NCBI GenBank assembly: GCA_023159155.1
Contig: JAJNNX010000017.1
Span: 806,001 to 870,000 of the forward strand
DNA from: Ustulina deusta
Lineage: Eukaryota > Ascomycota > Sordariomycetes > Xylariales > Xylariaceae
DNA: 64,000 bases
Reading direction: 5' to 3'
Numbering within the stretch: position 1 is the stretch's first letter; every line of letters begins with the position of its first letter. The notes below the pieces were generated by a model. The model worked only from the letters and a program-made list of their open reading frames with translations, had not been told where the DNA came from and searched no databases. Both the position numbers and the translations under genes were made by a program. This document shows positions 17,964-60,208 of this stretch, in pieces.

Positions 17964-18005
17964 AGCTAACACCCCCCCTTGCGAACCACCCCATTGCGAC
18001 CCAGC
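17964..18005 (+). repeat. Left terminal inverted repeat of Fot1-like copy A
   Basis: 42 bp, AGCTAACACCCCCCC...GCGACCCAGC, with one mismatch (CCATTGCG instead of CCATCGCG) to the right TIR. That C-to-T change is RIP-like. Confidence 0.9.
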
Positions 18006-19840
18006 CACCAAAATAGCCACCCACCAACTTTCGAAGCCATTATTCATAGCACAACATAGTATTTATAGCCAACCTTAGTATTTTTATTAAATATTAAGAC
18101 GTTCTAACCTTAATTATATTTTTAGTTTTTGTTTTTTTTGCTTTTAGTATGTTTTTATTTCTAGTTTTATTTATATATAGCGTTCGCTATTATAATTTTT
18201 GTTTAACTTGCTATATATAGGTTATATAAATAAAATAATAACTAAGTAGCAATTTAACTAATTTATGCTTTAATATAATCTTTTTAACTAGTTTAGCTTT
18301 TAATAGCTTAATATATGCTTTTAAAATTATAATTTTTTTAGCTTTCTAATTAAAAACTTTGCTAACTTTTATAAAAAATAATTTTTATAATAAGTTATTA
18401 AAAAAAAAATATTTAATTAATTTCTAAGTTATATATTATAAATTTTAGTTTTTTATAAATATTATAATTTTTATTTAGCTTAGTTTAAACTAATATTTAA
18501 ATATTTTAAATTAATTAATTCATATAAATATTAATTAAACTTTATAAGTAATATTTTTATTTTTAAATATAATATATTTTAAAAATAATAATAATTAAAT
18601 ATTTTTTAGCTATATTTTAGTTATTATTTATATTTTTTTAATAATTTTTAGTAATAAAATAGTATTATAAGCTTATTTATATACTATAATTATATTTTTT
18701 TTTAAAAATATAATATTAAAGCAGTTTTTAAATATTTTTTTAATTTTATTTTTAAACTTTTTTTTTAATAAATTAAAAACTTTAATATTTAATATTTATA
18801 TAATATAGCTATAATATAATTTATAAAAAATAAGCTATATTTTATTTAAAAAATAAAGTTATAAAAAATTATTATTTATATATAAATTATAATTATTATA
18901 TATTAATATAACTTATATATTATTAAAACAGCTTTAAACAAATAAATAAAAATATTAATAAATTAATTAATAATAATAAAATTATAAATTTATTTATTAA
19001 GTAAAGTTTTAAACTATTAGTTTTTAAATAAACTATAATTTATATTTAAAAACTATTAATTTTAAATATTAATTTTTTTAAAAATAAGCAGTAGTAATAA
19101 AACAATACTTTTATTACTAATATACTTAAAAAATATTATTTATTTGTTTTTTTTAATATTTTTTTTAAAGCTATATATATTAAAGCTTTATAAATAATCT
19201 AATAACTTTTTTTTATGCTTTAACTAATATTTATTTTATTAATATTAAAAAATTGTTTTAAAAGTATATTTGTTAGTTCGGAAGCTTTAAAACGTTTAAA
19301 AAATAGCTTAATATTAATTATAGTTGTTTTATTAATATATAAATAACTAATAAATATTAATTTAGCAATCTTTAGTTTAAAATTATAAAAAAAAAACATA
19401 TATATTATAATTTTTTAAATATTTTAAAGTTTTTAAAAACTAATAATATATATTTAGCTATATATTTAAATTTAACTATTAAAAGTATAAAGCTTAGCCT
19501 AGCCTAATTTATAGCTTAATTAACTAGTTTAATTTTAAAGTATAAAAATAAGATTTAAAAGTATTAATATAACTATTTTTTAGTTAAAATATTATTAAAG
19601 CAGTAATATATATATAACTAATTAATACTCTATTAAATAGCTGCTTATTTTTATAAAGTACTAAGTTAAGTAGTACAAACTATAATTATTATATATTATT
19701 AGTTGCTATATAAAAATATTACAATAAAAAAGAGTTAATTTTAAAGAAAATAAAAATAAAAAAAGAACATAAGAACTAAACGCAGTTGCATTATTTAACA
19801 ATTTTTAATTGAGGTGGTTGGGGTTAGTAGTGCGTTTTTA

Positions 19841-19882
19841 GCTGGGTCGCGATGGGGTGGTTCGCAAGGGGGGGTGTTAGCT
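19841..19882 (-). repeat. Right terminal inverted repeat of Fot1-like copy A
   Basis: 42 bp, reverse complement of the left TIR except one base. It contains an outward ATG and open codons (MGWFARGGVSL), which create spurious or chimeric reading frames at every TIR in this window. Confidence 0.9.
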
Positions 19883-37588: not shown

Positions 37589-39382
37589 TTAATGAATATG
37601 CACAAACCGCTGATTCTCTATCCTACTACCAACCGCTTCACCTTCCATGATTCCCGGAACGAACACGTCCCCTCTGAACGTGTAATGATACGAAGAATCC
37701 TGACTTTTTACAGCGGCGTCGTTCGCATCCAATGGCCCAAGCAAGAATGGAGATCTGCCTCCCGACAACACCCAGACCTCGTCTCCAATTGATGTTCCGG
37801 ATGGACCCAAGCCCACTGCCCCGTTCTCCGTGATGAACAGTCGCTGGTGTCTAAGCATCACCCCACGCCAATACGCGTCACCATTTACTCCCTCGATTAT
37901 TTCCTCCGAGTCCGCGTAGTTCCCTTCTATAATATCAACTAGCGCCTCCTGCCAGTAGACTTCCGATATGACGCGGAAACGAGGCTCTTCGGTCAGGGCC
38001 TTAGCTATCACCTCGGCTACCATTTCGTACAGCCGGTCTCCCTCTTCTCCCCTGGCGATGACATCGCTGCAAACTAGGATCTTGTCAAAGAACACGCCGT
38101 TCACATTCAACACATCCTCGCCGAGCTCGGGCGAAATCAACTGATCTAGATCTAGCATCGGCAGTCCCCTATCCGCTGTGTAGTTGAGCCAGAATTTGCT
38201 ATGTTCCCAGAAAGCCGCCGTCTCCTGCTCCGCTGGCTGACGTGTCCAATCAACGACCCAGCTGGGCAGCCCCGGGACGCTCTTCCGCTCGCCGCGGAAC
38301 CCGATCATGACTCTGAGCCCGGACCCGTAGCGGAGCAAGTCGAGCATGACCCTGCGGTACAGGACCGCCGTGTTGAGGGTATAGTCGCTGGAGCGCACGC
38401 TCGGCAAGGGGTACGTCCCCTCGGCCACCAAGTTGAGAATCACATACACCTTGTCACGAGGATCCGTCGAGTCGCGATACCGAAAGCGATAGAGCATGTC
38501 GAACGGCGGGTGAGGTTGCACAACCCACCCAGATGCCCATATCAGACCGATGATTGGCGCCGTGAAAAAGCTGTAATTATCAACGAGATCGTTGGTGTTG
38601 AGCCGCTCTACCGGCGGGTACTGTCCCCAAATCAACTTCTCTGTCGCCTGCTTCATGAAGCTCCAGGGAAGAGAAAGGGACCCCCAGAGAACGGTTGCGT
38701 TTTTCGGCGACGTCGCTTCTTGGACAGTCCAGATCCGACTCCACCATGGCGAGGACATCAGTGTTTTGAGAGCTGTGCCCGCCTGAGCCCGTTGGGTCTT
38801 TGTAGCGAGGGAAGAGGGAAGTGCCGGAGAATAACCGGATTGCGTCTAGGGCGCCCTCTGCCGCCGCTAGGGCTTCCGACTCTGTCGTGCCCATGGTGGT
38901 GGCATCGATGTTGCCCAACCACATATAGCATTGCAGGCAATTAGAATAAATTTTGTGCATCATATCCACCTGCGCCGTTTTCTCCGCGCCGTCCTCTTGG
39001 TTAATACATAGCGCGTCTACCCAGAGATGACGGGGCTGGGTCTCGTGTCTTATGCGTGTCAGGGCGTCGAAGAGATTGTCCGTCAATTCCGCTTCCGTCC
39101 CTTCAACGACAATGGTTCTCCTCCCTTCCATCTTACCCCAGACGTACGATAGGGTTTCATACTGTACATCTCCATCGACAGTAGCAATCTGATACGAACA
39201 TCGAATGACCTCGCCGTCCCGCCCGGGCTTGATCTTGAGAAGCCGGATCTGGCCGCGACTGCTATCTATGGGGAGGAACCCAAAATCTGGCAAGGTGGTG
39301 AATAAACTCCGCCTCGGTACTTGCGGGATTCGGAATACGTACGAGGCGCTAGACAAACTGGAGATCGTGGATCAGTATCCAT
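37589..39382 (-). pseudogene. HET-domain (heterokaryon incompatibility-type) gene with apparent frameshift
   Basis: A HET domain is clear: FLPIDSSRGQIRLLKI, YETLSYVWG, HLWVDALCINQED, MMHKIYSNCLQCYMWLG, then SSPWWSRIWTVQEA. The N-terminal part (to about 38778) and the rest (38780-37589) are in different frames, offset by one base near 38777-38785; the expected text ALKTLMSSPWW is in the second frame. No convincing donor/acceptor pair explains the shift, so it reads as a 1-bp indel or a sequencing error. Frame one has no ATG before FLPID; an upstream exon from an ATG at 39382 with a GTACGT...CCAG intron (39342-39287) gives a plausible start. The C-terminal region (about 390 codons) is open, with VNGVFFDKILVCSDVI and IGDEVWVLSGGRSPFLL typical of HET proteins. 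If functional, it would trigger incompatibility-type cell death. Confidence 0.75.
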
Positions 39383-41734: not shown

Positions 41735-43501
41735 CTACGCGCCAATTTGGACTTTCTCTGCTTCTCGCCAGCAGCATTTCCTACCCCACCTAAATCTGAA
41801 ATGTTCTCCCAAAGCCAAGGGAATGCAGGGGTTCCAGCGAAATAACTTGGGATTCATTGCTACGAAGTCACTTACCGACACGGCACCGTGGCCCGGGATC
41901 ACCCATGGTGAGAGATCTCGAACATCATCCGAGAGAGGGTCAAGTCTGTCCGTATATCTTTTGACAGTTTCCTCGTCCGATCCCAGCAGCTTCAGCACTA
42001 AAACGAGGAGACATATCCCGAGGTAATAGTCGGCACTATGCGTAAGCTCTGCTTCATGTGCTTGATCGGTCGCTCTCGTGAAATGGTTCCTGGCCAGCAC
42101 CAGAGACTTAGGACCCCCTTTCGAGGCGGCCACCAATGCCATGATGAGGTCACACGCAAATACCAAGGGGTGTTTATCACCAATGGATAGTTGAAGTTTG
42201 CTTTGTATAATGCTGATTGCTGACTCTGCGTATTCGAAATCTCCGCGCGCAGCTCGGGTTCTAGCCTGGTTCAGAGCCACGGTCAAAGTGCAGAAGTGGT
42301 CTGAACCAGCTATACTATCGAGTCCTCTATAGGCTTCGTCAAAGTAGTCCAGGGCATTATCGGTTCCCACCGCCCAGCATAGTCTTCCGAGGTTGTTCGT
42401 CGTCATGAGATAATGTGGGTGTTGTTTCCCAAGAAGCTCTTGCAGGGTATCATGACATTTCTGATACAATTGCCGAGCATCCTGATACTTCCCTTCCGCA
42501 TGGAGGAGCTCACCATAATCATTCGCAGCAACTAGAGTGTACGGGTCGACCCATCCAAGCATCTTGTGAAATCGATCATAAGCATTCTTCGACATGTTTT
42601 CAGCAGCTTTAAGGTGGCCCATCCCCCGCCTGGCAACTCCAGATGCGTCTATGAATCGAAATGTCACTGGATGGTCTTTTAGATCGTCCACAGATAGACC
42701 TATGGCTTCCTCAAATGCTTTATTTGCCGATTCAAGGTCCCCCTTCGCATATAGAACTTCTCCGAGATCGTATAAGACAGCGATTGTCTCGTAGTGCTCG
42801 CGACCGTATAATTGCGCCACGACATCGAGACATCCTCTAACCATATCTTCAGCTTGCTTAAATGCGCCTTGTTGTCGACGAAGACCGGCGAGATTACAGC
42901 GTAAGCGTATGGTAAGAAAGTGGTCAAACCCGAGAACCTTGATGAACGAAGGCAGCGCTTTTTCGTAAAGCACCCGTGCTTCTTCTAGTCTGCCTTGATG
43001 ATCAACTGTCGTAGCAAGGTTACTGAGAGTCTTCAGAGTGCCGACATTCTCAATACCAAGTCGTTGCTCTGACGGCTCTAATGCAATGTGGTAGATATGC
43101 TCGGCCTCATTTAAGCGACCCTGATTGTGATAACAAAGCCCAAGGTTATGAGCCGCGGCCATTGTGTTGGGGTCGTCATGGCCTTTGACTTCGTAAAGCT
43201 GGTAAAGCGACTTGAACATCACCTGAGCTTCCCTGAGTCTTCCAGCTCGTTCAATTAGTGATGCCAAGTCATTCAACACCATCAAGGTTTCCGAAGCCAG
43301 AGGACCCGATGTTTCTTCTTGCAGCTTGAGGGCCTGGCGATAAAGTTCTTCGGATGCTCTCATGTTGCCGGCAAATCTGTTCGCTTGTGCGAGTTTATGT
43401 ATGAGTGAGACAGTCCTGGCGTTTTTCAAGCCGAGATTATCAATATACACCGGCAGTGCTTCCTCAAGTTGCGAAAGGCCTGTGACCACAGCGCCATGGG
43501 A
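41735..43501 (-). pseudogene. 3' half of disrupted NLR gene: TPR repeat region
   Basis: 589 codons open from the TA target site to the stop at 41735. It contains about ten tetratricopeptide repeats of the kinesin-light-chain/TPR_10 type (about 42 residues each), for example HDDPNTMAAAHNLGLCYHNQGRLNEAEHIY-like and KVLGFDHFLTIRLRCNLAGLRRQQ-like units. The C-terminal ~90 residues have no repeats. It lacks its own start: the upstream sequence is the TIR of the 14-kb insertion. The 5' half lies at 57567-60208 on the same strand, and deleting the insertion plus one TA joins codon GTA to TCC in frame. In STAND receptors the TPRs are the sensor. No stop or RIP damage is seen in the TPR part. Confidence 0.9.
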
Positions 43502-43503
43502 TA

Positions 43504-43545
43504 AGCTAACACCCCCCCTTGCGAACCACCCCATCGCGACCCAGC
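43504..43545 (+). repeat. Left TIR of Fot1-like copy B
   Basis: 42 bp starting AGCTAACACCCCCCC, identical (inverted) to the right TIR at 57525-57566. Confidence 0.92.
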
Positions 43546-43981
43546 TAAAAACGCGCTACTGACCCCAACCACCTCAATTAAAAATTATTAAATAACGCGA
43601 CTGCGTTTAGTTTTTATGTTTTCTTTTTACCCTTATTTTTTTTAGAATTAACTTTTTTTTATTGTAATATTTTTATATAGTAACTAATAGCATATAGCAG
43701 CTATAGTTTATATTGCTTAACTTAGTACTTCGCAAAAATAAACAACTATTTAATAGAATATTAACTAGTTATATATATACTACTGTTTTAATAGTATTCT
43801 AACTAAAAAATAATTATATTAATATTTTTAGATTTTATTTTTATATTTTAAAACTAAACTAGCTAATTAAGCTATAAATTAAGCTAAACTAAGCTTTATA
43901 TTTTTAATAGTCAAATTTAAGTATATAACTAAACATATATTATTAGTTTTTAGAAACTTTAAAATATTTAAAAAATTATAA

Positions 43982-44113
43982 TATTATAATAGTATTAACT
44001 ACGCACAAGGCTACTGCCAACTACATACAAGACTATTCATACAACACTAACAATTAGCTATTGGTCCAATTGCATAAGCGGTATATATATACAAAATTCT
44101 CTTACTATATATG
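43982..44113 (+). repeat. Truncated 5' LTR of copia element 1
   Basis: Matches the first ~132 bp of the 3' LTR (TATTATAATAGTATTAAC for TGTTATAATAGTATTAAC) and then abruptly diverges at 44114, so the last ~118 bp of the LTR and the primer-binding site are missing. Confidence 0.8.
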
Positions 44114-44345
44114 TCATGAATGGGAAGTTCACAAGGTCAGGTACAATATATGGAAGGATAAGTTGTATATTTGGTAAGGTTGGCTTACAAGACTAAAGCT
44201 TATAAAAAGAAAATTCTCTATTAAAATAAGAGCAGATATAGTACGTATATATAGCAAATATATATTAGTCCTAGTATGCCTAGCATAACAACTATTCTTC
44301 CTTTTTCAATCAGGTTATTTTTAACTTAATATATATAAGTGTACT
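44114..44345. other. Less-degraded sequence of unknown origin replacing the end of an LTR
   Basis: Begins TGTCATGAATGGGAAG at the exact point where the copia-1 5' LTR breaks. It retains normal G content and lacks the dense TA pattern of its surroundings. A TGTCA start is common for Ty3/gypsy LTRs, so it may be the end of a third inserted element; no second copy was found in the window. Confidence 0.4.
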
Positions 44346-47285
44346 AAATATAAGGAATATAAAATAGGGGGGTAATAAAAGTACATATAAAAAAGGGTTA
44401 ATTTAGGTATAGAAGTGGTAAAGGATTAGGAATAATATAAATATAAGTATATAAGTATATAAGTTATATATAGGATAAGTAATATTATTATTATTATTAT
44501 TATTGTTAGTATTATTATTACTATAAAGGTTATTATTATTAGTAATATAAGTATTTTAGTACTTATATAATATAGTTAATTAGGAATTTTAATATATATA
44601 TAATGCTATATTTTAGGTACTTAAGTATATTATAAATATTAAAGCTAGTAATTTAAGCATAGACTATATATAAATTGCTTATAAAACTAATATATTTATA
44701 TATAAATATTTTAGCTTGTTTTTTTTTTTTTTTTTTTTTTTAGCTACTGCTATTATTTTAGTTAGTTTTAGCTACTCTTTTACTTCGCCACTATCGTTTC
44801 TTACTTTCTCCGCACTTTTTTTACCTTTTTTTTTTTTTTTTATGTTAGTATTACTATATCTAACACTAACTTTATTACCTTTTTTTTAAATAATAAACTT
44901 TTTATTATTTATTATAACTATTATTTCTAGTATAAAATTTATTAAAAAATAATTAATAGCTATAACTACTATAATTATAAGCGCTATATATACAAATAAA
45001 GTATATACGCTAAAAATAAAGCATATAAGCATAGGGCTACTAAAGATTTAGTTTATAAAATATATACGTATTAATACTATTTTAGCAATATTTATAATAA
45101 AGCTTAGCCCAATCTTAGCCAGCTTATTTAAATTGTTTATATAATAAAAAAAGCAAAAGCCTCCTTTTGTAATAAATACCAAAAAAAATAAAAAAATATA
45201 TAAGCTAATAAATATAATTATATCTATTTTATATTAATATTTTTATTAATTTAAATATATTATATAATTAGGTTCTAAGCTTAATATTTTTTAATAAGCT
45301 AATATGTTTCTGCTATATATAAGTTAAATTATATTACTATACAAAAAATACCTAAATTAAAAACATAAAAAATAATAGTATATAACTAGTATAGCTAATA
45401 GTAATATAAAAGAAATATAGCTAGCCAAAAAAAAAACCTATTATATATTTATTATATAATACCTAAATATTATAGATCTTTTTAATTATAAAAGAATATT
45501 AAGCTTTTAAACTAACAACTAAGCTTTATATAAATAAGATTATTATAACCCTTAAAAAACTATTTAAAAAATCAGATATAATAAAGATTAATAAACTTAT
45601 TGTATAAAATATTTTTAAGTTTATTATATATAACCTAAACATATATAAAAAAAAATATATTTTTAAATCTTGCTTTATATAAAAAATAAAAAAAAAGAAT
45701 ACCAAGCTATACAAAAAGTTAAAACTAATTATATAAAAATATAATAATATTAAAAAAAATATAATTTTAACCTAATTGCTAATAATCTAACAAATAAACT
45801 AATAGTTAATTTTAGCTTTTAGACCTACTTTTATATATAACTTTAAAATATTATATAAGTTTAAAAATATTACTTAAATTTATATTTAGTTAAAAAATAA
45901 GCTATTATATAATATTTATATTTGTCTATCCCTAGAGCTAAAAAACAAATATTTTTTAAAAACTATTTTATAAATCATCTAACTTTTATATAGCTTAGCT
46001 AAATCTAAGCTATATTAGTTCAAAACTTATTATTAATACTACTAAAAAAAACTTAAAATATAAATATTTATATATAACTTATATTTATTATTTATATATA
46101 ATAGCCCGGACACTTTTAGAATAACTAAAATATAAACAAATAATACTTTAAGCTTTATAACTCTAAACTTTTTAATATAAAAAAAAAAAAAACTTTAGCA
46201 AGTAAAACTTTATATAAAACCAAAAAAAACTCTATTTTTTAACTATTTAATCAAATTTAATAATAAAAATTTTTTTTTATATAAATATAATATTATAATA
46301 ACCTAAAAAAGCTAAACTAAAAATTTAGCTAAGATTAACCTTTATATAAAAAGGTTTACTTAAGCTTATATTTTCTAATAAGCCTAAAAAACATATATTA
46401 GTAATATATACTAACTAGAAGCTATATATAACCTTATTATTATAGCTTAAATAACTAAGCTATAATTATATAATATTAAAATATTAAACAAATAAATTAA
46501 ATAATAAAAAAATAACCTAACTTAAGAACTTATATTTATTTTATTTAATTTTTATTATATAAAGCTATTTATTTTTATAAACAGCTTGTTTATAAATAAT
46601 ATAAATATGACTTTTTAGTTTAACTTTATTATTATACTAGCAATTAAAACTTATATAAAAAATATAATAAACCTAAACTTTAAAATTAAAAAAAATATTA
46701 TATACTAAAATTTAAATAAATATAAACAAGTTATATAAAGCGTTCTAACTAACAAATTATATAATATAATAAATAACTTTAATAGTACTATTACTTTTTG
46801 TACAATTTTTTAAAAAGTTATAAAAATACTTAACTTATTTCTAATACTTACTATTTTATACTTAGACTTAAAATTATTATATAATTATTTAGTTAAGCTA
46901 AAAATAATAATAAAAAAAAAACTAATAATTAATATTATATTTTTTTAAAAATTATACAAAAAAAAAAAATTTCTAAAGTATAATAAATTAATAATAAAAA
47001 CAATCCAATAAATATATTTATTAAACATACTTTAAACTAAGCACTAAAAACTTTAGTTTTTATTAATAAGCTACTTATATAAATCGAAATATTTATTAAA
47101 AAACTATAAAAAATATATTTATATAATAAAAAATAACTAATAACTAAGCTATATATAAAAAAACAAACATTATATATAAATATTAAAAAAAATAAAAAAG
47201 CATAAAAAAAACAATAAAAATTTATTTATATCTTAAAGAACTAACATATAACTATTTTTTTTTTTTTTAGATAAAACTCCTCTTT

Positions 47286-47480
47286 TTTTTTTCTAACTGC
47301 AGTTAAAGCATCGCGCTCCATACAAACGCTAAACATAAGCGCTACACATACCTCCCTAAAAACTAGGGACCTAACAACACGCTAAGAACAGCACTCTAGT
47401 ATAATAACAGTAGCTGCCGCATAAACTATCTATACAAGGCAAAAATACCACTTTCTAACTTTGGACTAAAATAATCCAAA
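47286..47480. other. Lightly RIP-affected island inside copia element 1
   Basis: About 195 bp downstream of the pol remnant with many C residues (CTGCAGTTAAAGCATCGCGC, ACCTCCCTAAAAACTAGGGA), in contrast to the >85% A+T flanks. It lies between the end of pol and the 3' LTR. No coding potential recognised. Confidence 0.4.
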
Positions 47481-47840
47481 AATAGCTTTTTTAATAAATA
47501 AACTTAGCTTAAACGTTTATAAAAACGTTTAATAATAATATTTAGAACATAATATTAATAAATAAAACAATAACAATAATACTTTTTTTATCTTATTATA
47601 TAATAAAACATATTAGCTATTAAACATACTAAGAATTATTTATACAAAAATAAAAACTAAAAATATATATATATTTATATAAAAAGTCTATATAAAGGCC
47701 TAGCAGGCCTAACTCCTTATAAAAAGGCTATATATTTTTATGCGGCTATTATCCTTTGTATAAACAAAATTTTAAAACTATAAAACGTTACCTAGAGCAA
47801 GCAGCACTAAATACAGGTAAGCAGAAGCAGTAGCAAATAT

Positions 47841-48021
47841 ACTACTATTACTACTACTACTAATAATATTACTTAAATTACTATTAGTATAACACTTAAA
47901 ACAACAAAAAAGCTTTATATATAATAATAATAGTAGTAGTAGTAGTAGTAATAGTAGTACTACTACTATTATTAATACTATTACTACTACTACTACTATT
48001 ATTATTATTATTATTATTATA
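47841..48021. repeat. TAC/GTA trinucleotide microsatellites in inverted array
   Basis: Runs of (ACT/TAC), then (AGT/GTA), then (ACT/TAC) and (ATT) units follow each other, so adjacent GTA and TAC blocks near 47936-47970 are self-complementary and could form a hairpin. A pure AT dinucleotide run follows at 48093-48120. Confidence 0.75.
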
Positions 48022-48089
48022 TAACAATTATTATTTTTAAATTAATATAACCTTAAAATAATAGCTAAAATATATATATAATATGTATA

Positions 48090-48125
<36 letters not shown>

Positions 48126-48473
48126 CCTAAAAAAAAAAAAAGAAAAGCAGTATAAAAACGGCCCGTTTTATATACAACAGCTATAAATATTACGCCTTAT
48201 CTAATCTTAAGCACTTTTAAACAGCATACAAAAAATAGTTATATATAAAAAGTAATTATATATAAAAAGCAGTTATATATAGAAAGCAATTATATATAAT
48301 AAACAAACTATAAAAAGCTTTTTAAAAAAATAGTAATTTAATATATTATTAAATAATTCTATTAGTTATAGATTAGCTATATATTATAATCTATATTTTT
48401 TTTACGTTTAAAATTTTTTATTTTTTTAGCAGTTATATAAAAATATGCTACAATTAAAAAAAAAAAAAGCCAG

Positions 48474-48723
48474 TGTTATAATAGTATTAACTACGCACAA
48501 GGCTACTGCTAACTATATATAAGATTATTTATACAATACTAACAATTAACTATTAGTCCAATTATATAAGCGGTATATATATGCAGAATTCTTTTACTAT
48601 ATAAGAATCTTCCGTACAAAAGTATTACTTTCGTATAAATAGTTAGAAAGATAGATCAATATATATAGTTATTTATCTCACCCCTTTGTTACGTACAATA
48701 TTGTACCCCTTGGCCACCTAATA
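48474..48723 (+). repeat. 3' LTR of copia element 1
   Basis: 250 bp. It begins TGTTATAATAG and ends CCACCTAATA, the CA terminus being mutated to TA. The downstream half is relatively G/C-rich (CACCCCTTTGTTACGTAC, GTACCCCTTGGCC), showing lighter RIP than the interior. Confidence 0.82.
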
Positions 48724-49277
48724 TATAATATATATGTTTTTTTTTTTATAATCTTAAACTAAAAACTACTAAATTAACGTTTATTAACTATTTATATATT
48801 AATAAAGCAATTATAATTAATATTAAACTATTTTTTAAATATTTTAAAGCTTTTAAACTAGCAAATATATTTCTAAAATAATTTTTTAATACTAACGAAA
48901 TAAATATCAGCTAAAATATAAAAAAAAATTATTAAGTTGTTTATAAAGCTTTAATATATATAGTTTTAAAAAAAATATTAAAAAAAACAAATAAATAATA
49001 TTTTTTAAATATATTAGTAATAAAAGTATTGCTTTATTATTATTGCTTATTTTTAAAAAAATTAATATTTAAAATTAATAGTTTTTAAATATAAATTATA
49101 ATTTATTTAAAAACTAATAGTTTAGAACTTTGCTTAATAAATAAACTTATAACTTTATTACTATTAATTAGCTTATTAATATTTTTATTTTATTTATTTA
49201 AAATTATTTTAATAATATATAAATTATATTAATATATAATAATTATAACTTATATATAAATAATAATTTTTTATAGC

Positions 49278-49564
49278 TATTGAATAAGCTATGTATAATA
49301 TTGTATGTAAAAACAAATAAACACGCGTTAATAAAATATACTGTATTGTATTATATCTAAATCCTGTACTAAAAAAAAAAAAAAAAAAAATGCTTTATAT
49401 AAAACAGAATTTCTTTTAAAAAAAAAATTCTACTAGCGTACAAACTAAAATAATAAAAAGAAATAAAGTTTTTATAGCTAATAGTTTTTATATAAAAATA
49501 TCTGTTTACTTATATAATACGCAGGTGTACAATATAGTTATAACTAATATTAGTTATTCTAATA
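49278..49564 (-). repeat. LTR of copia element 2 (3' LTR in element orientation)
   Basis: 287 bp from TATTGAATAAGC to TTATTCTAATA, more heavily AT-mutated than its partner. Confidence 0.85.
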
Positions 49565-52500
49565 CTAGCTATTTTTTTTTTTAGTTATAACTACTTATTA
49601 TATAAAAAAAAAAAAAAAGTAATTATATACTATATAACTAACTAAAATATACGTGTAATATTTTATCTAATAAGCGTATTAATTAGATTAGCAATCTAGC
49701 TTTATATATAATAGCTAAATTATTTAGTTGTTTATTTTAAATATAATTGCAAAAAGCAGAATTATAAAGCTAATATTTTAGCTATACGATTAGCTAAAAA
49801 TATAAGCTAAGGGTTACTTAGTAGCTATTTGGATCGAAGCTAAACCAGGTACTTCTAATTTATACGCTAGCAAAGTTTATAATTAGCTAACTTGTTTAGT
49901 TGGTAGGCTTTGTACAAGCAGTTACTAGTTAAAACTTTTAGTATAATACATATATAGCCGAATTAATAAATATTTTTTATATAGAAAGAACGTAAAAATA
50001 AACAAATATATATTGTTTTATATAAAAAAAACGCAAAAGTAGTAAGCAAATATATATTGTTTTATATAAAAAGAACGCAGAAATAGGCAAGTATATATTA
50101 GCTCGTATATAAAAAAGCCCGAACATAAAAAGCACTCAAGTTTTTTACTGTCCTTTATTTTTTATTGCTTTTATAATCTACTGCTTCGTACGTTAGTCCG
50201 TCCTTATATATATATATATATATATATACCTGCACCCACACATATATATACATATATATATATATACACACATACTTATATAATAAACACTATCTAACTA
50301 TTTAGCAATAATAGTTGTATGCTTATTATTATTAAACAAAAGCCTAGATATAACATTATATTACTACTAACAAATAATCCAAACAATTATTGCTTTTTTG
50401 CTATGTTATACATTAATATAAATATTTATTTTTGCTTTATATAATACATTCATATGTATTACTAATATATTAGCTTTTTATATATAAGCTAATAAAGCCT
50501 AGGTTGCCGCTTTACTTTCGGTTAATATTTAGATTTAAGTATTATTAACTAAACTGCTTATACTTATAATTATACAAATCTTTTGTTATAAAGGTTACTT
50601 TTATATAGTCTTTATCTAGTTACGTAGTACTATTATTACTGCTTATATATAGAATGCTTATACGGCCTATAATAGCTTCCTATTCTATAGCTGTTGCTAG
50701 ATTATTAGATTCTAAAATAACGCTTGCGCTACATACGTATAGCAATTATATAGTGCTTAATATAGTTACTATATATATATAAAAAAAGGTTTTGTAAAAG
50801 GGGGGTTCTTAATTATATAATAAAAAAATAAATACTTAAAAAAAAAAAAAATAAAGTTTGTATTATTTTTATTTAGAGTTAATACATTATATATTATTTT
50901 TATTATTCTGATTCTTTTTTTTTTTATAAATGCTATACTTATATAATAACTTTTTATATTTGTTTAATAAATACTTTAATTTATATAGTTAGCTTATTTA
51001 TTAAAACAAAGGTTTTTAATACCTGGTTTAGCGTTTGTTTCGTAAATATATCGGCTAGGTTATCTTTTCTATTAATTTATTATACTTTAAAAATTTCTTT
51101 CTTTTTATACAACTTGCAAAAAAATATAATATTAATTATTAACTGCTTTTTTTATATTATATTTAGCCTTACTAAACAATTATATAATAACTTTAAATCT
51201 AAATATAAAATAATTAAAATTAAAAGTAATTCTAGCAAAGCTATAATCTTTTAAAATATTATACAAAAAGTAATAATACTATTAAATCTATTAATTATAC
51301 TATATAACTTATTTATAAATATGTTTTTAATTATTTATTTATATTTATTTAAGTTCTAGTATATAATATTACTTTTAATTTTAAAGTTTAAATTTTTTTT
51401 TATATAGCGCTCTATACTTAGTATAATAATAAATCTAAGCTAGGAAGTTATATTTATATTATTTGCAAATAATCTATTTATAAAAATAAATAGTTTTATA
51501 TAGTATAAATTAAATAGTATAAACGTTAAGCTATAGTTATAATTATTTATTTATTATTAAATTTTTTTATTTAAATTTTTAATATTATATAATATAAAGT
51601 TTATTATTTAAGCAGCAATACATAAATTATATACTATTTTTAATTAGTAGATACTACTAATATATGCCTCTTTTACCTATTACAAAATATATTTTTAAAT
51701 AAAGTTAGTTATATAAAAATTAACCAAGTTTAGTTAGTTTGTTTAGCCTTTTTAAATCAAAATAATCTTTTTTTTAAATAATAGTATAATTTATTTATTA
51801 TTAAACTTTATAAAGTAGTTTTACTAAAGTACTTCTTTTGGCTTTATATAAAACTTAGTTTATTAAAATTTATATTTTTTTTTTCTAAAAAGCCTAAAAT
51901 TATAAAATTAAACATATTATCTGTTTATAAGCTAATAATATTAAAGTTATACAATAGATTTTTTATAAACAAAAAACATAGGTTATATATAAAAATAGTT
52001 ATCTTTAGTTTTTTGTAGTAATATTAATAATATGTTTTGAACTAGTATAGCTCTAATTTTGCAAGTCCATATAGTAGTTATATAATTTAAAGAATTGTTT
52101 TATCAGAATATTTCAACTTTAGTTCAGATAGCAGTTATATAATGATTTTTTTGGCTAGTTTATCTTTTAACTATATATATACCTATATAATATTTCGGAA
52201 CTTGCTTAAAGCATTAAAATTATAGATTAAAAAAAAGCCTAATATAAGAAATAATTGCTAGCTTATTTATTAAATCGTAAGTAACTAGATAAGAACTATT
52301 TCTTTGTTTTTATTGTTATAGCTTTATATAATAAGTCGGGATTTTTTATATAGTTTAGTTGTTTTTTTTTTAATTTTTTATATAAGCCAGAACTTAAAAA
52401 TCTAAGTATTATTATATTTAGCCGGGTTATATTTTACAAACTAAAATATGCTTTATATAACAAAATTATTAATTTTTGTAACGTCTGATTTTTTGAATAG

Positions 52501-55500
52501 TCCGTTAGATATATTAATTATGCTATTTTTATATAATTTAATAATTAAAGTACAGTTCTATTCTTTTTTAAAAATTAAAAATAACTAGCTAATTTATTAT
52601 ACAAAAGTTATAAAAAATTGTATGGCTTTTTAGAGGTATCTTTGTTTTTTTTATATATTAAGCTTTTAGAAAAATTATATATTTTTTGCTTTTTTGTTCT
52701 AATTATTTAAAAGTATTTTTTTAGTTATATAGTAATAAAGCTTAATTTAGGTCTATTTAAACCGTATTAAGCTATTTATTAAATTAATAATTATATTTAA
52801 CTTTTTAATAGATTTTATTTTATATAGTCTATTCTAGCTTTTTTTTTTTTGTTATATTAAGATTTTGCTTCAGAAAAAAAATAATAATATATTATATAAA
52901 ACTGGTCTATTGCATTAGTTAATTATATAGTTAATTTTAATTTTTGCTTTTTTTTTATGTAACATTTTTATAGCCTTTTTTATAGCTTTTACTTTTTATA
53001 TAATATCAAGCAAAAGAAGTAAGTCCTAGTTAACTTTAAGGTATACTTTAAAGACTAAAAAAGTTAATATAAAGCTATTTGGCTTAATAATATTATTTAG
53101 AACTTTAATTACTATTTATAAAATTAATTTATTTTTTATATAATAATTAATTTTAGCTTTTAATATATTATATATATAATAAAGTAAGCTATATGCTTTA
53201 ATAAGTATTATATAATACTAAAAGCTTATAATTCTAGCTTAGTTCTAAAACTTTTTAAATAAAAAGTTTATACTTAGGTTATATATAATATTATTAAAAG
53301 GTCCTTAATATATATTAATCTAATATTTATATAGTGCTTTTTAAACGTTTTATATAAATATTAATTTAAAAAATATTACTACTTAGAACAATATAGCAGT
53401 ATTAATTATATAAAAGACTTGTTTATTGTTTATTTATATAGTATTAATTATTATTTTATAGTTAAAATTATAATTATTTTTAATTAAAAACTTAAAATAT
53501 TAGAGTGCTTATTTATATAACTAGTAATAATAGCAAAACTTTTAGATCTTTTTTAGAATTAAATAATTAATATTATACCTCGTACAACTAAACATTTTAT
53601 ATAGTTTTTTTGTACAAAAGTATTTAAATTAGCAATAAAACTATTATAGTTCTGTTTTTGTAAAAAATATGCTAGCTTTATGCGGTTTAATATTAAAAAA
53701 TAAATATTTTTATTTATATATAATAAAAATAGTCTTACTGTTTTTTTATATAATAATATTTTTTATATTATTAAAGTATGCTTATAAGCGATTAGCGTTC
53801 TTTAAAAAAAACAGAAATAGTATTGGGCTATTTAGAATATAATATATTGTTATACTAAGGGTATTTTTTATTTGTATAGTACTTATAGCTAAAATTATAC
53901 TATTACTACTGAACCTGATATGTGCGGTTTCTGGTGTCTAATTAACCTTTGTACAAGGGTACAATCTAATATAGGCTTTTAATTATGTTTTTTTTATTAT
54001 TAAATAGTTCGAAGCGCTTATATTTTATAGTTCGCTTTAATATTCCATACAATACTAATTATTTAAGGTAAACTAGTTAAACAGAATATCTGTTTTATAG
54101 TTTTAAATATTTTTTCTAGTTGTATAATATATAAACATATTATTTATTAAAAATTAAGTAAACTAGCTTTTAAATTTTTTGTTTATATTTTTATTACTTT
54201 TATTTAACTTTAAGTACTTTTTATATTTTATTAAATATATTAAAAATTCTTTAAATATAGGTTTAATATTATATATTATTTCGTATAAATTAAAGTACTA
54301 GCTTTTTATATAAGCTTATTCTTAAAAAATATGTTTTATTAACTAATATTTTTCTTTTTAGTATATAAAGCATTTCTTGTTTATATAGTTGCTTTTAAAG
54401 TTCTAGTCCTTTAAATAGTTTTATTATATGTTTAGCTTGTTTAATAATCTAAAAAATCTAAGTCAGTAGCCTTTTATATAATAACTTTAGTTATATCTTT
54501 TATTAATAAAATAAATATTATTATCTTTTTATATAAAATATTTTAGCATATTATCTATTATTACTTAAATATATATTTAAAAATTAAAAAAAAAACCTTC
54601 GTACGTTAGCTTTTAAAATATAAGTACTATAGCTAGTTCAGGTACTTCTTAATATATTTATATAATAGTTATGCCTAGTTAGATTTTTTTTTAGTAGTTT
54701 ATACTAAGTGCTCGTTATACTTTTGTAAGTTTATTAATTATAAGTTTTAGTACTTTGTATAATACTAATTCTAAGTTTTTTTTTTTTATTTATACAAATA
54801 TAATTAAAGTTTAGTTAGCTTAATATTAATTATAGTTTATATTATTATTAAAATAACTATTTATTATATAATAGATCTTATACTATATTTTTTCTGGTTT
54901 AATATAATATATATAATATTTTTTTGTAAAGTTTTCTAAAATGCTTGGAAATATAGCGTAGTATTAGTTTTTTGTTATTTCGAACTATTAATAAGCGTTT
55001 ATAAATAAGCGTGCCTTATTATAAAATAAATTATATAAATAGCTTATATAGTTCTTTTTTTTTTTTTATATTTTTAAAAAAATAGTATATTTTTTAAATA
55101 AAAATAATCTGTTTTATATATTCTTTATAAAAAATAAATCTAAAAAAAAACTATTTAATATAAGTTTTAATATTATATAAAAGTACGCTTGTAGTATAAA
55201 AGTTTAAAAAAAGTTATAAACTATAAAATACTTATATATTAGTTAGAAGTTTAGTTTATAGCCTGTTTTTAATATATAATTATATATTATTTCTAGTATA
55301 TATTAAGTTTTTATAGTTAGTTATATATACTTAAAGTTCTAGTCTTTATAAAGTTAGAATTATATATTCTAGATAAATATTAGTTTAAGCTATATAAGTT
55401 CTAGTTATTTGATTTTTAATTTTAGTTCTGTTTATATAATAAATTAAAAGGTTAAAGTAAGCTAAAAAGTTTTTTAAAAAGTAGCTTAGAGTTATTAACT

Positions 55501-56378
55501 AAGTATAAAAAAAACTAATAATTATTATATAATAAATATTTAAGTTGTTTAGGTTAGAAATCCTAAAAATTTAATAATTTTAAATTTGTTTTATATAATT
55601 GTAGCAAGTTATTTATAAGCCGCATTTTTTTTAACTAACCTTTATATGCTTTTTTTTTTAACTATTATTATAAACTTTATATATATATTTTAGTAAATTA
55701 TATAAAAATAATCCGCTATTTATTTTTTAAAGTTTTTTTAAACGCTTTTTAGAATAGCTATCCGGACCTTTTTATGTTTTAATATTTAACAAATTAATAA
55801 ACAAACTATATATTTATTATAACTTTACTTATATAAAATTTATTAAAGTTTTTATTTTAAAAATTAAAGTTAATATAGTTTTGTATAATTTTTGTACTAA
55901 TATTAATATTTTTAGCAAGTTTTTTATATATAAAGTTCAAGCGTAACTTAGTAGACTCTGCTAAAGTGCTTAATGCTTCTTGTGCTATAATAAAAAAAAA
56001 AAAAAAAATTAAAAAGTTCGTTTAGCTATTATATAACAATATGGTCAAAAATAACACAATTACGTACTATTTTTTTTTTTTTTATATAATACTTCGTTAG
56101 TCCGAAAAAAAAAGTTATATTATATAATAAAAAAATAGATTTTTTTATTCTTTATACAATAAACAAATATCCCGTTAGTCCAAAAAAAAAAGTTATATTT
56201 GCTTTATTTTCGAACAATACATATTAACTAATTAAAAAAAATAATTGTTATATAGTAAAAAAATAAAATACAATATAAAGTCTTTCTTGTTTATAAAAAG
56301 CTTAGCTCCGTTTTTACTTTTGCTAATTTATAGTACTTTTATAGTTAGGTTAAAAATATTTTAGCAATTACTAATTAG

Positions 56379-56665
56379 TATTAAATAAGCTATATATAAT
56401 ATTATATATAAAAATAAATAAATATGTATTAATAGAATATACTATATTATATTATATTTAAATCTTATACTAAAAAAGAAAAAAAAAAGAATGCTTCGTA
56501 TAAAACAGAATTCTTTTTAAAAAAAGAATTCTGCTAGTATACAAACTAAAACAATAAAAGGAAATAAGGTCCCTACAGCCAATAGTCTCCGTACAAAAAC
56601 ATCCGTTCACCTGTGCAATGCACAAGTGCATAATATGGTTATAACTAATGCTAGTTATTCCAACA
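56379..56665 (-). repeat. LTR of copia element 2 (5' LTR in element orientation)
   Basis: 287 bp from TATTAAATAAGC to TTATTCCAACA. It keeps many original G/C bases in its right half (GGTCCCTACAGCCAATAGTC, GTTCACCTGTGCAATGCAC). Confidence 0.85.
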
Positions 56666-57524
56666 ATAGCTTTATTTTTTAAATAAAATATAACTTGTTT
56701 TTTATAAACTATACTATAGTTATATTATATAAATATTAAATATTAAAGTTTTTAGTTTATTAAAAAAAAATTTAAAAATAAAGTTAAAAAAATATTTAAA
56801 AGCTGTTTTAGTGTTATATTTTTGAAAAAAAATATAATTATAGTATATAAATAGATTTATAACGCTATTTTATTACTAAAAATTATTAAAAAAATATAAA
56901 TAATAATTAAAATATAGCTAAAAAATATCTAATTATTATTATTTTTAAAATATATTATATTTAAAAATAAAAATATTATTTATAAAGTTTAACTAATATT
57001 TATATTAATTAATTAATTTAAAATATTTAAATATTAGCTTAAACCGGGCTAAATAAAAATTGTAATATTTATAAAAAACTAAGATTTGTAATATATAACT
57101 TGGAAATTAGCTAGGTATTACTTTTTTTTTAATAATCTACCGCAAAGGCTATTTTTTATAAAAACTAGCAAAGCTTTTAACTAGAAAGCCGAAAAAATTA
57201 TAATTTTAAAAACACACATTAAGCTATTAAAAACTAAACTAACTAAAAAAACTATATTAAAGCATAAATTAATTAAATTGCTATTTGGTTATTATTTTAT
57301 TTATATAACCTATATATAGCAAATCAAGCAAAAATTATAATAGTAAACGCTATATATAAATAAAGCTAGAGATAAAGATGTACTAAAAGCAAAAAAAAAA
57401 AAAACTAAAAATATAATTAAGGTTAGAACGTCTTAATATTTAATAAAAACACTAAGGTTAGCTGTAAATACCATGTTGTGCTATGAATAATGGCTTCGAA
57501 AGTTGGTGGGTGGCTATTTTGGTG

Positions 57525-57566
57525 GCTGGGTCGCGATGGGGTGGTTCGCAAGGGGGGGTGTTAGCT
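57525..57566 (-). repeat. Right TIR of Fot1-like copy B
   Basis: 42 bp, perfect reverse complement of the left TIR. The adjoining inner sequence (TGGCTTCGAAAGTTGGTGGG) matches the inner left end of copy A. Confidence 0.92.
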
Positions 57567-60208
57567 TACATTGGCCTGGCCACTGAGTGCCAGTAGTGTT
57601 ACATATTGAGTAGGCGGAAATGCTTTAGCCTTCGCTTGGTTGATGAGGGCTATACACTGCGGAAGACATAGATCAACCCACGCCCGATCCTTGGCTGACG
57701 TGTCGTCAACAGGAAACATGTGGTACATGACACTCAATCCATGTAATATCAACATGCCAACCTCTGCGGATGGAACCGAGGCACGAACTGTGACTTTGGT
57801 AAGGTCGTGCATCCAAAGGCACTTCCGATTGTTGTCGGCCCGACGCACCAGATTGAGGTCCCAGAGTTTACCAATGGCCGCTTCCCGTCTGACCTCATCC
57901 TGGAATATGTCCTCTAGGAGACTAGGGGGCGTGTGAACCTTCTCTAGTCTGGCTTGGGCAGGCCTTTTTTGCTGACATCTGCGTCTTAAACAAACACCAG
58001 AAGGCCAACACATCCGATTTTTATATGCAATGACAGATTGTGACAAGTGAGCCTCGTTACTTTTTCTCAAATCGGGCCCCTCGCCAATTCGATGCCATAT
58101 GTCGAACGAGGGGATGGCTTCAAGTTCTAGGATAGAGTAGAATCTCAGAACCTCTAGAGAGTCAGGGTATGACTGCTCAAGCGTCTGCAAAATGAGCCCG
58201 AAGTGTTTTGCAATGGAAAGTCGATGATGCGTGTAATCATCATTCCAATCCAACACCTATAAGTACATTAGGCCAATTACAAAGTAACAAATAGTTAGGA
58301 GAACAAATGATCTTACTTGATTTGGCATTCGATTGTATCTAGCAAGAAAAGTATCCAGGTCTAAGTTGTTGAACTTGATGTATGACGCCACTTGATCAAT
58401 AGCATGTGGTAGGAAGCCCAATTCCCTAACGATGCCAACGGCTGACCGAATATTAGCTTCTGATTCCTCACATCCAGTGGTGATCATGAAAATCTCGACA
58501 GTCTCGTCGAGCCCAAGTTCCTTGAGCTCCAACGTGTTATTGGCCGGAAGAGCCAACTTCTCGGTTACCAATCGGAGTTGGGAGCTGACAATGACATGTC
58601 CCGAAGCGTCAACCGGGAGGAGACGACGTATTGTGTCGACTTCTTCTCTTCCAACATTGTCAATCAGGAGAAGCCAATTCTGGATCTTCGACACTGTTCG
58701 GAAGAATAATTGAATCATGGCGAGGTCATCGGAATTAGTATCAGGGGCCGAATTCATTTCCTGCAACATCTCCTGGCACGATGCAGCTAGTTTGGCATGG
58801 GAACCAGCACTGAGGAAAAGCTGACTATAGTAGATGTCCCTGTGTCTTTTCTCATACTCAAGCATCTTATAATAGACATATTAACACGTGGAGTAAGAGG
58901 CGCTCAACGAGCAGGCCTGGGAAGAGATTGCCAATGACTCGAGGGGACTCACCAATTGCGTTTTACCAACACCCGTCATACCGTGAATGCCCACGCAGCA
59001 TCCAATCGCCTCCCCATCAACTATATTGAGTTTATCTTCAAGCCAAGACAGTTCGTCAGCTCTACCTGTGAAGCGATGGGACAGCAGACCCGGCACATAC
59101 GGTAGCCCGAGACTTTGATGGTGGATGCCTGGGACATGGTACGATTTCTTGGGAGGAAATTAGTCACGGCGTCGAGGATAATATCCATTTTATCATGCAG
59201 TTCTATGCTCCTCCATTAGCAGCTTCACGAAAAACACTTTATGACGGATACAGACGGACCGCCAACCTCGAGATAGGTCATAACAGACGTCAGTTGATGG
59301 ATGAGGGTTGCCTTGGCGTCGATGATCTTAAGACAATCTTGAAAGGGGTTTCCAGACTTCGTGATGATCTGCAGAGTGTTGCCTATGAGGTATTCAGCCA
59401 GTACGGTGGAAGGGGTCGCCGCATCCCGTGACCACAGTCAGGTCATGACTTACCGATGCTGGAGGCGGTCACCCTCCTCACGTGAATGCAAAATGTAAGA
59501 TATTCCATATAGATTTCGATAAGATAGGGAAGCAACGGACAAACAGTCTGAGTCCTAACGCTCAGGCAATCCTTATATTTGCTATAAGCAGGAAAGGAAT
59601 CCTGAAGTTGTTTGATGCTGTCGATCACAATGACGGGGATCGATGACACTTCTCTGGCCACCTAGCATAGGATGAGAAGGTTAGACAAGGCATGGCAATG
59701 GAAAGGGAAGCAGTGCAGCGTGTAGATGCTATGCAATAGTCATGAACCGAATCGACTCACAGTACCTATAGAATGGAGCTGAAAAGCAAAGAGAAGGGGC
59801 GGATGATTGGGTACATACTAAAATCAAGACCTTTAAAGAACCCCAGATGAGACAAAAAGTTGAATTGGCCTGGGAAAGAGTATCTAGGGCAGTCGCAATG
59901 AGTCTCAGAGGCTCGAAGAGAGCATTCAGTCTGTGGAAAAAGCGGTGGAATGAGGTCTTGTCGAGCTTGGCGTGGCACTCTCTCTCGACTTTGTCCAATT
60001 CGAACTTGGCCTGCTTTAGAGTTGTGCACGACTTGCTCGATTCTACAAAGGAATCAAATTCGGCCCTTGAAATGACACGACCGACTTTAGCCTCGAGTTG
60101 CGCTATCGCCTCCAAGTATACGTCGTGTTCTAGATCGACACTGCAGAGCGGGGTATTACTACAATGTGCCCCCTTTGCAACACCGAACGTATCATTGACC
60201 TTCCTCAT
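57567..60208 (-). pseudogene. 5' half of disrupted NLR gene: fungal STAND N-terminal domain plus NB-ARC
   Basis: Proposed exons are 60208-59819, 59661-59454, 59382-59267, 59147-58953, 58865-58317 and 58256-57567; all junctions keep frame, with two AAG acceptors less certain. The N-terminal helical domain ends LIWGSLKVLILVAREVSS, the pattern of the domain that opens many fungal NLRs. NB-ARC: FTGRADELSWLE, P-loop GMTGVGKTQL (about 58982-58953), Walker B NWLLLIDNVG, GLPL-like LGFLPHAIDQVASYI, and an MHD-like LWMHDLTKV. The last codons LSGQANV meet the TA of the insertion; reading on gives only one more codon (AGC) before a TAA inside the TIR. The TPR half is at 41735-43501. Joined, the gene encodes 1304 aa. 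Known role of such receptors: non-self recognition and incompatibility-type cell death. Confidence 0.88.

Follow-up and report, generated by a model that had tools for sequence, protein, structure and literature searches.

We here report the analysis of a gene of the NOD-like receptor (NLR) kind, belonging to the STAND class (signal transduction ATPases with numerous domains), in the fungus Ustulina deusta. The gene is located in a stretch of 64,000 nt, hereafter the window, which corresponds to positions 806001-870000 of contig JAJNNX010000017.1 in assembly GCA_023159155.1; unless otherwise stated, coordinates are those of the window. In our reading, to which we assign a probability of about 0.92, this gene, which carries NB-ARC and tetratricopeptide repeat (TPR) parts and is the only close copy found in the genome, has been split by a transposon that now contains nested insertions and is changed by repeat-induced point mutation (RIP). 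The events may have taken place in three steps. A transposon of about 1.93 kb and of Fot1/pogo type, from a multi-copy family resident in the genome, would have entered a TA in the sixth coding exon; two elements resembling long terminal repeat (LTR) elements would then have landed inside it, bringing the insert to its present 14.06 kb; and RIP would finally have turned the insert AT-rich, sparing the adjacent exons and the very ends of the insert.

Continuity of the receptor gene across the break

The homologues used here come from a search with the TPR part (120 of 144 matches listed) and a search with P0002, a relative that is contiguous across the break (59 matches), in total 174 proteins, against which the two pieces of the window were blasted separately. 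On the whole, 20 of the 174 proteins match both halves, and 18 of these 20 are contiguous at the break, with zero residues between the two matches. They include named proteins of Xylaria, Nemania, Podospora and Penicillium; the two exceptions are P0006 and P0017, whose models have gaps or are incomplete. The same contiguity is seen when five homologues are aligned with the window pieces left unjoined. The preliminary description of the stretch had proposed a TA-flanked insertion that naturally disrupts an NB-ARC/TPR STAND receptor, and had suggested comparing it with homologues; the 18 proteins running across the break, together with the TA duplication described below, bear this out. Among the TPR matches of at least 35% identity, two are without the N-terminal half, namely P0001, which is the window's own protein of 542 aa, and P0003, an open frame of 557 aa. 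The latter begins within the TPR part and is thus neutral on whether homologues end naturally at the NB-ARC/TPR boundary. As judged by this comparison of sequences, the N-terminal/NB-ARC part and the TPR part are to be taken as one gene, and the split as real.

The gene lies on the minus strand, with six coding exons between 60208 and 57567 and a further, seventh piece between 43501 and 41735. Exon 1, the N-terminal region (59819..60208), is placed by tblastn with P0121 (64% identity), its length and its splice ends, and exon 2 (59454..59661) by tblastn with the same protein (67.5% identity) and by GT..AG intron ends. Exon 3 (59260..59382) follows from tblastn with homologues and splice ends, and exon 4 (58953..59202), which includes the P-loop GMTGVGKTQL and a change of frame, from tblastn and three-frame translation. 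Exon 5 (58317..58865) covers the NB-ARC region according to tblastn and an NB-ARC profile match. Exon 6 (57567..58256), supported by its open frame, tblastn and the homologue boundary, stops at the insertion site with ...LSGQANV. The TPR part (41735..43501) then begins with SHGAVV and extends to the stop codon, with 83% identity to P0002.

As for the domains, the C-terminal array matches TPR_12 in 7 stretches (E 1.3e-54). NB-ARC was not matched when the exons were scanned singly with Pfam, and positions 58383-59012 of the window (864383-865012 of the contig) give an NB-ARC match of 27.6 bits, over the cut-off, with one stop read through; the corresponding scores in the homologues P0121 and P0122 are 32.5 and 32.6 bits. 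These two proteins also match DUF7708, at 26 and 27 bits and just over the cut-off, and exon 1 of the window has a single sub-threshold Pfam match. The intact relatives of 1312 aa in Xylaria sp. FL1777 and X. arbuscula have DUF7708, NB-ARC and TPR matches. Searches of the genome, here and below, cover the assembly of 56.06 Mb in 123 contigs. With P0002 we find 26 other places in it, with identities of 24-40% and for the most part confined to short TPR stretches; this search, which scores the best candidates only, gave no paralogue above 40%.

The preliminary description also placed the split exactly at the boundary of NB-ARC and TPR. The break does lie between the two parts, but the word is too strict, since the NB-ARC match in P0121 stops at residue 501 and the break comes after residue 757. 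In fact, exon 6 contains 29 of the 170 TA sites in the coding exons, so an insertion between NB-ARC and TPR is unremarkable.

The insert as a transposon in three pieces

The insert has a length of 14,063 bp and is bounded by an exact inverted match of 44 nt (43502-43545 and 57525-57568, TA included). The inverted match and the flanking sequence give a TA target-site duplication at 43502..43503 on one side and at 57567..57568 on the other; next to them are perfect terminal inverted repeats of 42 nt at 43504..43545 (plus strand) and 57525..57566 (minus strand), which are also found by the end motif. The gene is broken on the N-terminal side at TA 57567-57568 and its TPR part resumes past TA 43502-43503; both break coordinates, with their TAs, are confirmed as first described. 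An assembly artefact that fused unrelated stretches is extremely improbable, given an exact family terminus plus TA at both ends and the contiguity of the halves in single homologues.

We searched the insert by nhmmer with a profile of 1929 positions, made from 29 short copies of the family (best E of the reversed-sequence control, 0.76). Three pieces are detected, all on the minus strand: 43504..43981, matching profile positions 1447-1929 (E 1.9e-145); 48724..49277, matching 883-1454 (1.7e-124); and 56666..57566, matching 1-904 (3e-255). All reversed, they together tile one whole family copy of about 1.93 kb. The profile and the reversed control were used because the blastn background is high in the AT-rich insert; plain blastn of a short copy gave matches of about 60% identity nearly throughout the AT-rich DNA. 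The copy in the insert has 3 private transitions, 1 private transversion and 2 missing positions, and the 29 short copies average 3.5 private transitions and 1.4 private transversions, so that the insert's copy resembles the remainder of the family. A 14-kb insertion, as previously described, is therefore present in length, but the element that entered measures about 1.9 kb, and the remainder consists of two nested insertions. Rfam gave 0 matches on the window.

The ends belong to a family that is widespread in the genome. The 24-nt end motif, allowing at most 3 mismatches, occurs 4 times in the window against 0.00 expected, and a genome search with the initial 20 nt of the repeat, allowing at most 2 mismatches, gives 67 places per strand, as compared with 0 in the backward control. 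Among these 134 places 100 were listed, every one exact, from which 38 pairs can be formed, the insert's pair included, and 29 of the 38 pairs are 1.9-2.2 kb long. Of the pairs, 28 short and four long ones were fetched whole, along with pieces of others, and the short set of 29 adds a second copy in the window (17964..19882, plus strand), identified by end motif, blastn and profile, which is un-nested, has intact ends and measures 1919 bp with about 12% GC. TA is present on both sides in all 32 whole copies (32/32), and likewise in both copies of the window. The 29 short copies have a mean identity of 90% (range 86-93%), and the closest of their 406 pairs is 92.7% identical, which shows no recent copy-of-a-copy among them. 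Three copies (L039, L049 and L060) exceed the usual 1925 bp by about 180-275 bp, and their extra positions in the alignment number 253, 271 and 275. Other family end pairs (L066-L077) are 8-22 kb apart, four of which were examined for length, GC content and RIP index, and nested growth of small transposons may accordingly be common in this genome.

The type of the family is indicated by L079, a related transposase from this genome whose frame is open and which matches the Pfam domains HTH_psq at 35 bits and DDE_1 at 87.8 bits. Among the best 12 of 205 matches, its alignment to the AT-rich copies covers residues 5-563 or 16-563 for several and is partial for others, with a best E of 2.4e-96 against 2.1 for the reversed control. 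At E 0.01, Pfam shows no CENP-B-like domain in L079, and no other search for CENP-B was made. With its TA duplication, short inverted ends and pogo-type transposase, the family is best assigned to the Fot1/pogo type of Tc1/mariner. Fot1 is about 1.93 kb long with ends of 44 bp.

The perfect ends bracketing the entire 14 kb, as well as the further end pairs at 8-22 kb, could also be read as a single large element that targets TA. We regard this as highly improbable, since the insert holds a full copy of about 1.93 kb, cut into three pieces at two seams that each carry 5-bp repeats, and 29 of the 38 pairs among the listed ends span only 1.9-2.2 kb. Two more arrangements were considered and rejected. 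For a composite of two transposons around a cargo, an internal family end would be needed, and none is found when up to 3 mismatches are allowed. If the insert were spliced out, the intron would begin with GTAAGC on the N-terminal side, followed by CTAAC, and end with TTAG on the far side, but the join shifts the frame (hand count), and 14 kb is far above the length of fungal introns.

Nested elements inside the transposon

The two sequences that separate the three pieces were delimited by their repeats and by the seams of the profile. Nested element 1 (43982..48723, 4.74 kb) has an LTR-like direct repeat matched over about 130 nt and TATAA at both edges; in nested element 2 (49278..56665, 7.39 kb), the LTR-like direct repeats are about 290 nt long and ATAGC stands at both edges. 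By eye, TATAA and ATAGC each occur singly at the matching points of uninterrupted family sequence. The direct repeats are 87% identical in element 1 and 79% in element 2, with scores of 105 and 196 versus shuffled maxima of 24 and 41. These features make the nested pieces compatible with LTR retroelements. A region of about 1.4 kb is common to both (45819-47274 and 50813-52242), in inverted orientation and at 76% identity, a figure to be read against the high AT-rich background and without a shuffled control. The two elements may be related retroelements.

RIP-like mutation of the insert

The insert has a GC content of 17.5%, versus 47.7% in the adjoining gene stretches, and a composite RIP index of +0.86, versus -0.65 and -0.44 for the two gene stretches; its dinucleotides are RIP-like. 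Transitions from C:G to T:A with depletion of CpA thus mark the repeated DNA and are not seen in the single-copy flanks. The transition bias of the family is evident: over the 406 pairs of the 29 short copies, we count 76,147 transitions versus 1,608 transversions (98% transitions). The mutation is unevenly distributed along the copies. In the first 20 columns at each end of the 29 short copies, 0 of 11 C/G columns are mutated, while in columns 80-99 the proportions at the two ends are 6/7 and 6/6. Thus at the ends of L038-L065 and of the copy at 17964-19882, RIP-like mutation is nil in the outermost 20 nt and climbs across about 80 nt. This graded sparing looks like an edge effect. RIP would be the mutator of the insert, acting on repeated DNA and leaving the single-copy gene alone, and it would have followed the nesting. 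The genome has DNA-methylase matches on three contigs.

Frame offset, products and competing interpretations

Several observations weigh against the interpretation given above. One is an offset of the reading frame, by a single nucleotide, within exon 4 as compared with P0121-P0124. It is found at 59096..59108 (minus strand), where the tblastn frames -3 and -2 meet, and is seen in the three-frame translation as well. The offset sits shortly upstream of the P-loop and is seen against four of the five homologues; the model of the fifth, P0125, starts about at the offset and is silent on the upstream frame. Because the frame of exon 4 moves by one nucleotide around 59,096-59,108, the homologue-guided exons total 3977 nt, which is not a multiple of 3, and the total of 3915 nt with no internal stop, claimed before, is not reproduced. 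The offset would be a second lesion in the gene or an assembly error, or else unusual splicing of a very short intron. A GT..AG stretch of 35 nt (59100-59066) would restore the frame by hand count but lose residues conserved in P0121-P0125, and the other five introns, at 57-157 nt, are all longer. The gene may thus have broken before the transposon or independently of it.

The other adverse points concern the identity of the elements and of the mutator. In nested element 1 the left repeat finds a match over only about 130 nt, although the right edge of the element is about 120 nt farther out. Pfam scans of the nested elements, in 12 read-through frames, detect neither gag/pol nor other domains; the sole match, Proteasome at E 0.093, is below the cut-off and at chance level. 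Pfam likewise gave 0 families, and no DDE_1, in 6 frames of the one copy scanned, L039. With no Pfam domain to go by, the kinship of the nested elements and of the family has its support in the repeats, the edges and the tblastn match. Finally, the RID methyltransferase was not identified among the DNA-methylase matches.

The offset makes it possible that the gene was already a pseudogene, through a frameshift before the P-loop, and that the transposon came later into unconstrained sequence, which would alter the order of events and leave the identity of the insert as it is. We consider this unlikely, while giving it appreciable weight: the tblastn alignments are free of other frame changes and, introns apart, of stops; the TPR part, over its 588 residues, is still 83% identical to P0002 with no net gaps; and the offset itself may be an assembly error.

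As to the products, the frame of the N-terminal half ends ...A-N-V-S-stop, the stop being the second codon within the inverted repeat. With this stop and a detached TPR sensor, the receptor should be null, and the split would amount to a loss of receptor function. On the other side of the insert, an open frame of 599 aa (41735..43534, minus strand) has its ATG inside the inverted repeat and is a possible TPR-only product, and P0001, the TPR-only protein of 542 aa, is listed as encoded in the window. Hence the earlier expectation that gene callers would report pieces holds for the TPR half. These two frames could suggest that each half now acts as a gene of its own, one giving an N-terminal piece and the other a TPR-only protein that starts either at the ATG of the repeat, with 599 aa, or at an ATG farther in, with 542 aa. 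This is very unlikely, in that the N-terminal half shifts frame ahead of the P-loop and both parts stay in one protein in 18 of 20 relatives; silencing by 14 kb of RIP-like DNA would also be expected. Very unlikely indeed is the further idea that the ATG in the inverted repeat provides a free 599-aa TPR protein with 11 transposon residues, the insert being a maintained receptor polymorphism like nwd2/het-s. We retain the reading of a receptor gene split by a transposon and probably inactivated.

Neighbouring genes

At 37589-39356, 2.4 kb past the TPR part, there is a HET-domain gene (PF06985, 92.6 bits), whose coding sequence is seemingly in two overlapping frames (intron or frameshift). Another NB-ARC match, in an open frame of 1280 aa, is located at 881308-881526 of the contig, about 11 kb past the right end of the window. 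Possibly, there is a small NLR/HET cluster around the locus. Elsewhere in the window, a GH17 protein has 84% identity, over 90% of its length, to a protein of Xylaria sp. FL0064; the named matches that come next belong to Xylaria species and to one Xylariales isolate, which places the host in or near Xylaria.

Comparison with known systems

The locus illustrates, at the level of single bases, how an NLR can be lost in a filamentous fungus, with the entry, two nestings and a RIP-like change confined to the insert. If other isolates have the empty site, it can be used to test whether NLR loss alleles persist. Besides, automatic NLR counts can take in TPR-only remnants of broken receptors, for example P0001.

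Fungal NB-ARC domains are described as preferentially preceding TPR (PMC4986451, PMC12258605). Compared with such NLRs, the intact relatives here have a DUF7708-like N-terminus, and the present copy is broken. For Sordariales, one of these sources describes NLR number as having no strong link to repeat-defence mechanisms (PMC12258605), so that the RIP-linked loss here is to be taken as a statement on a single locus. The transposon is like the Fot1/pogo type of Tc1/mariner, as outlined in PMC7325037, in its TA duplication, short terminal repeats and pogo-type transposase; it differs in that all 29 short copies are RIP-like and that one copy scanned has no Pfam domain. For Aspergillus flavus, AT-rich insertions from 400 bp to 14 kb with Mariner and Gypsy homology and RIP-like mutation have been described (PMC9910759). 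Those insertions, in that description, are non-coding and compared between strains, whereas ours is within a coding exon and known from one genome.

The closest parallel that we found is nwd2 of Podospora anserina, a STAND gene which, according to PMC3321046, is inactivated by the transposon REPA in the het-s isolates analysed. Both cases concern a fungal STAND/NLR gene knocked out by a transposon. In the case described there, nwd2 has the partner locus het-S and the data come from several wild isolates, while here we have one genome, an NB-ARC/TPR receptor and a nested, RIP-like insert. The transposon knockout of a fungal STAND gene is therefore already known, and the present locus is a good further example.

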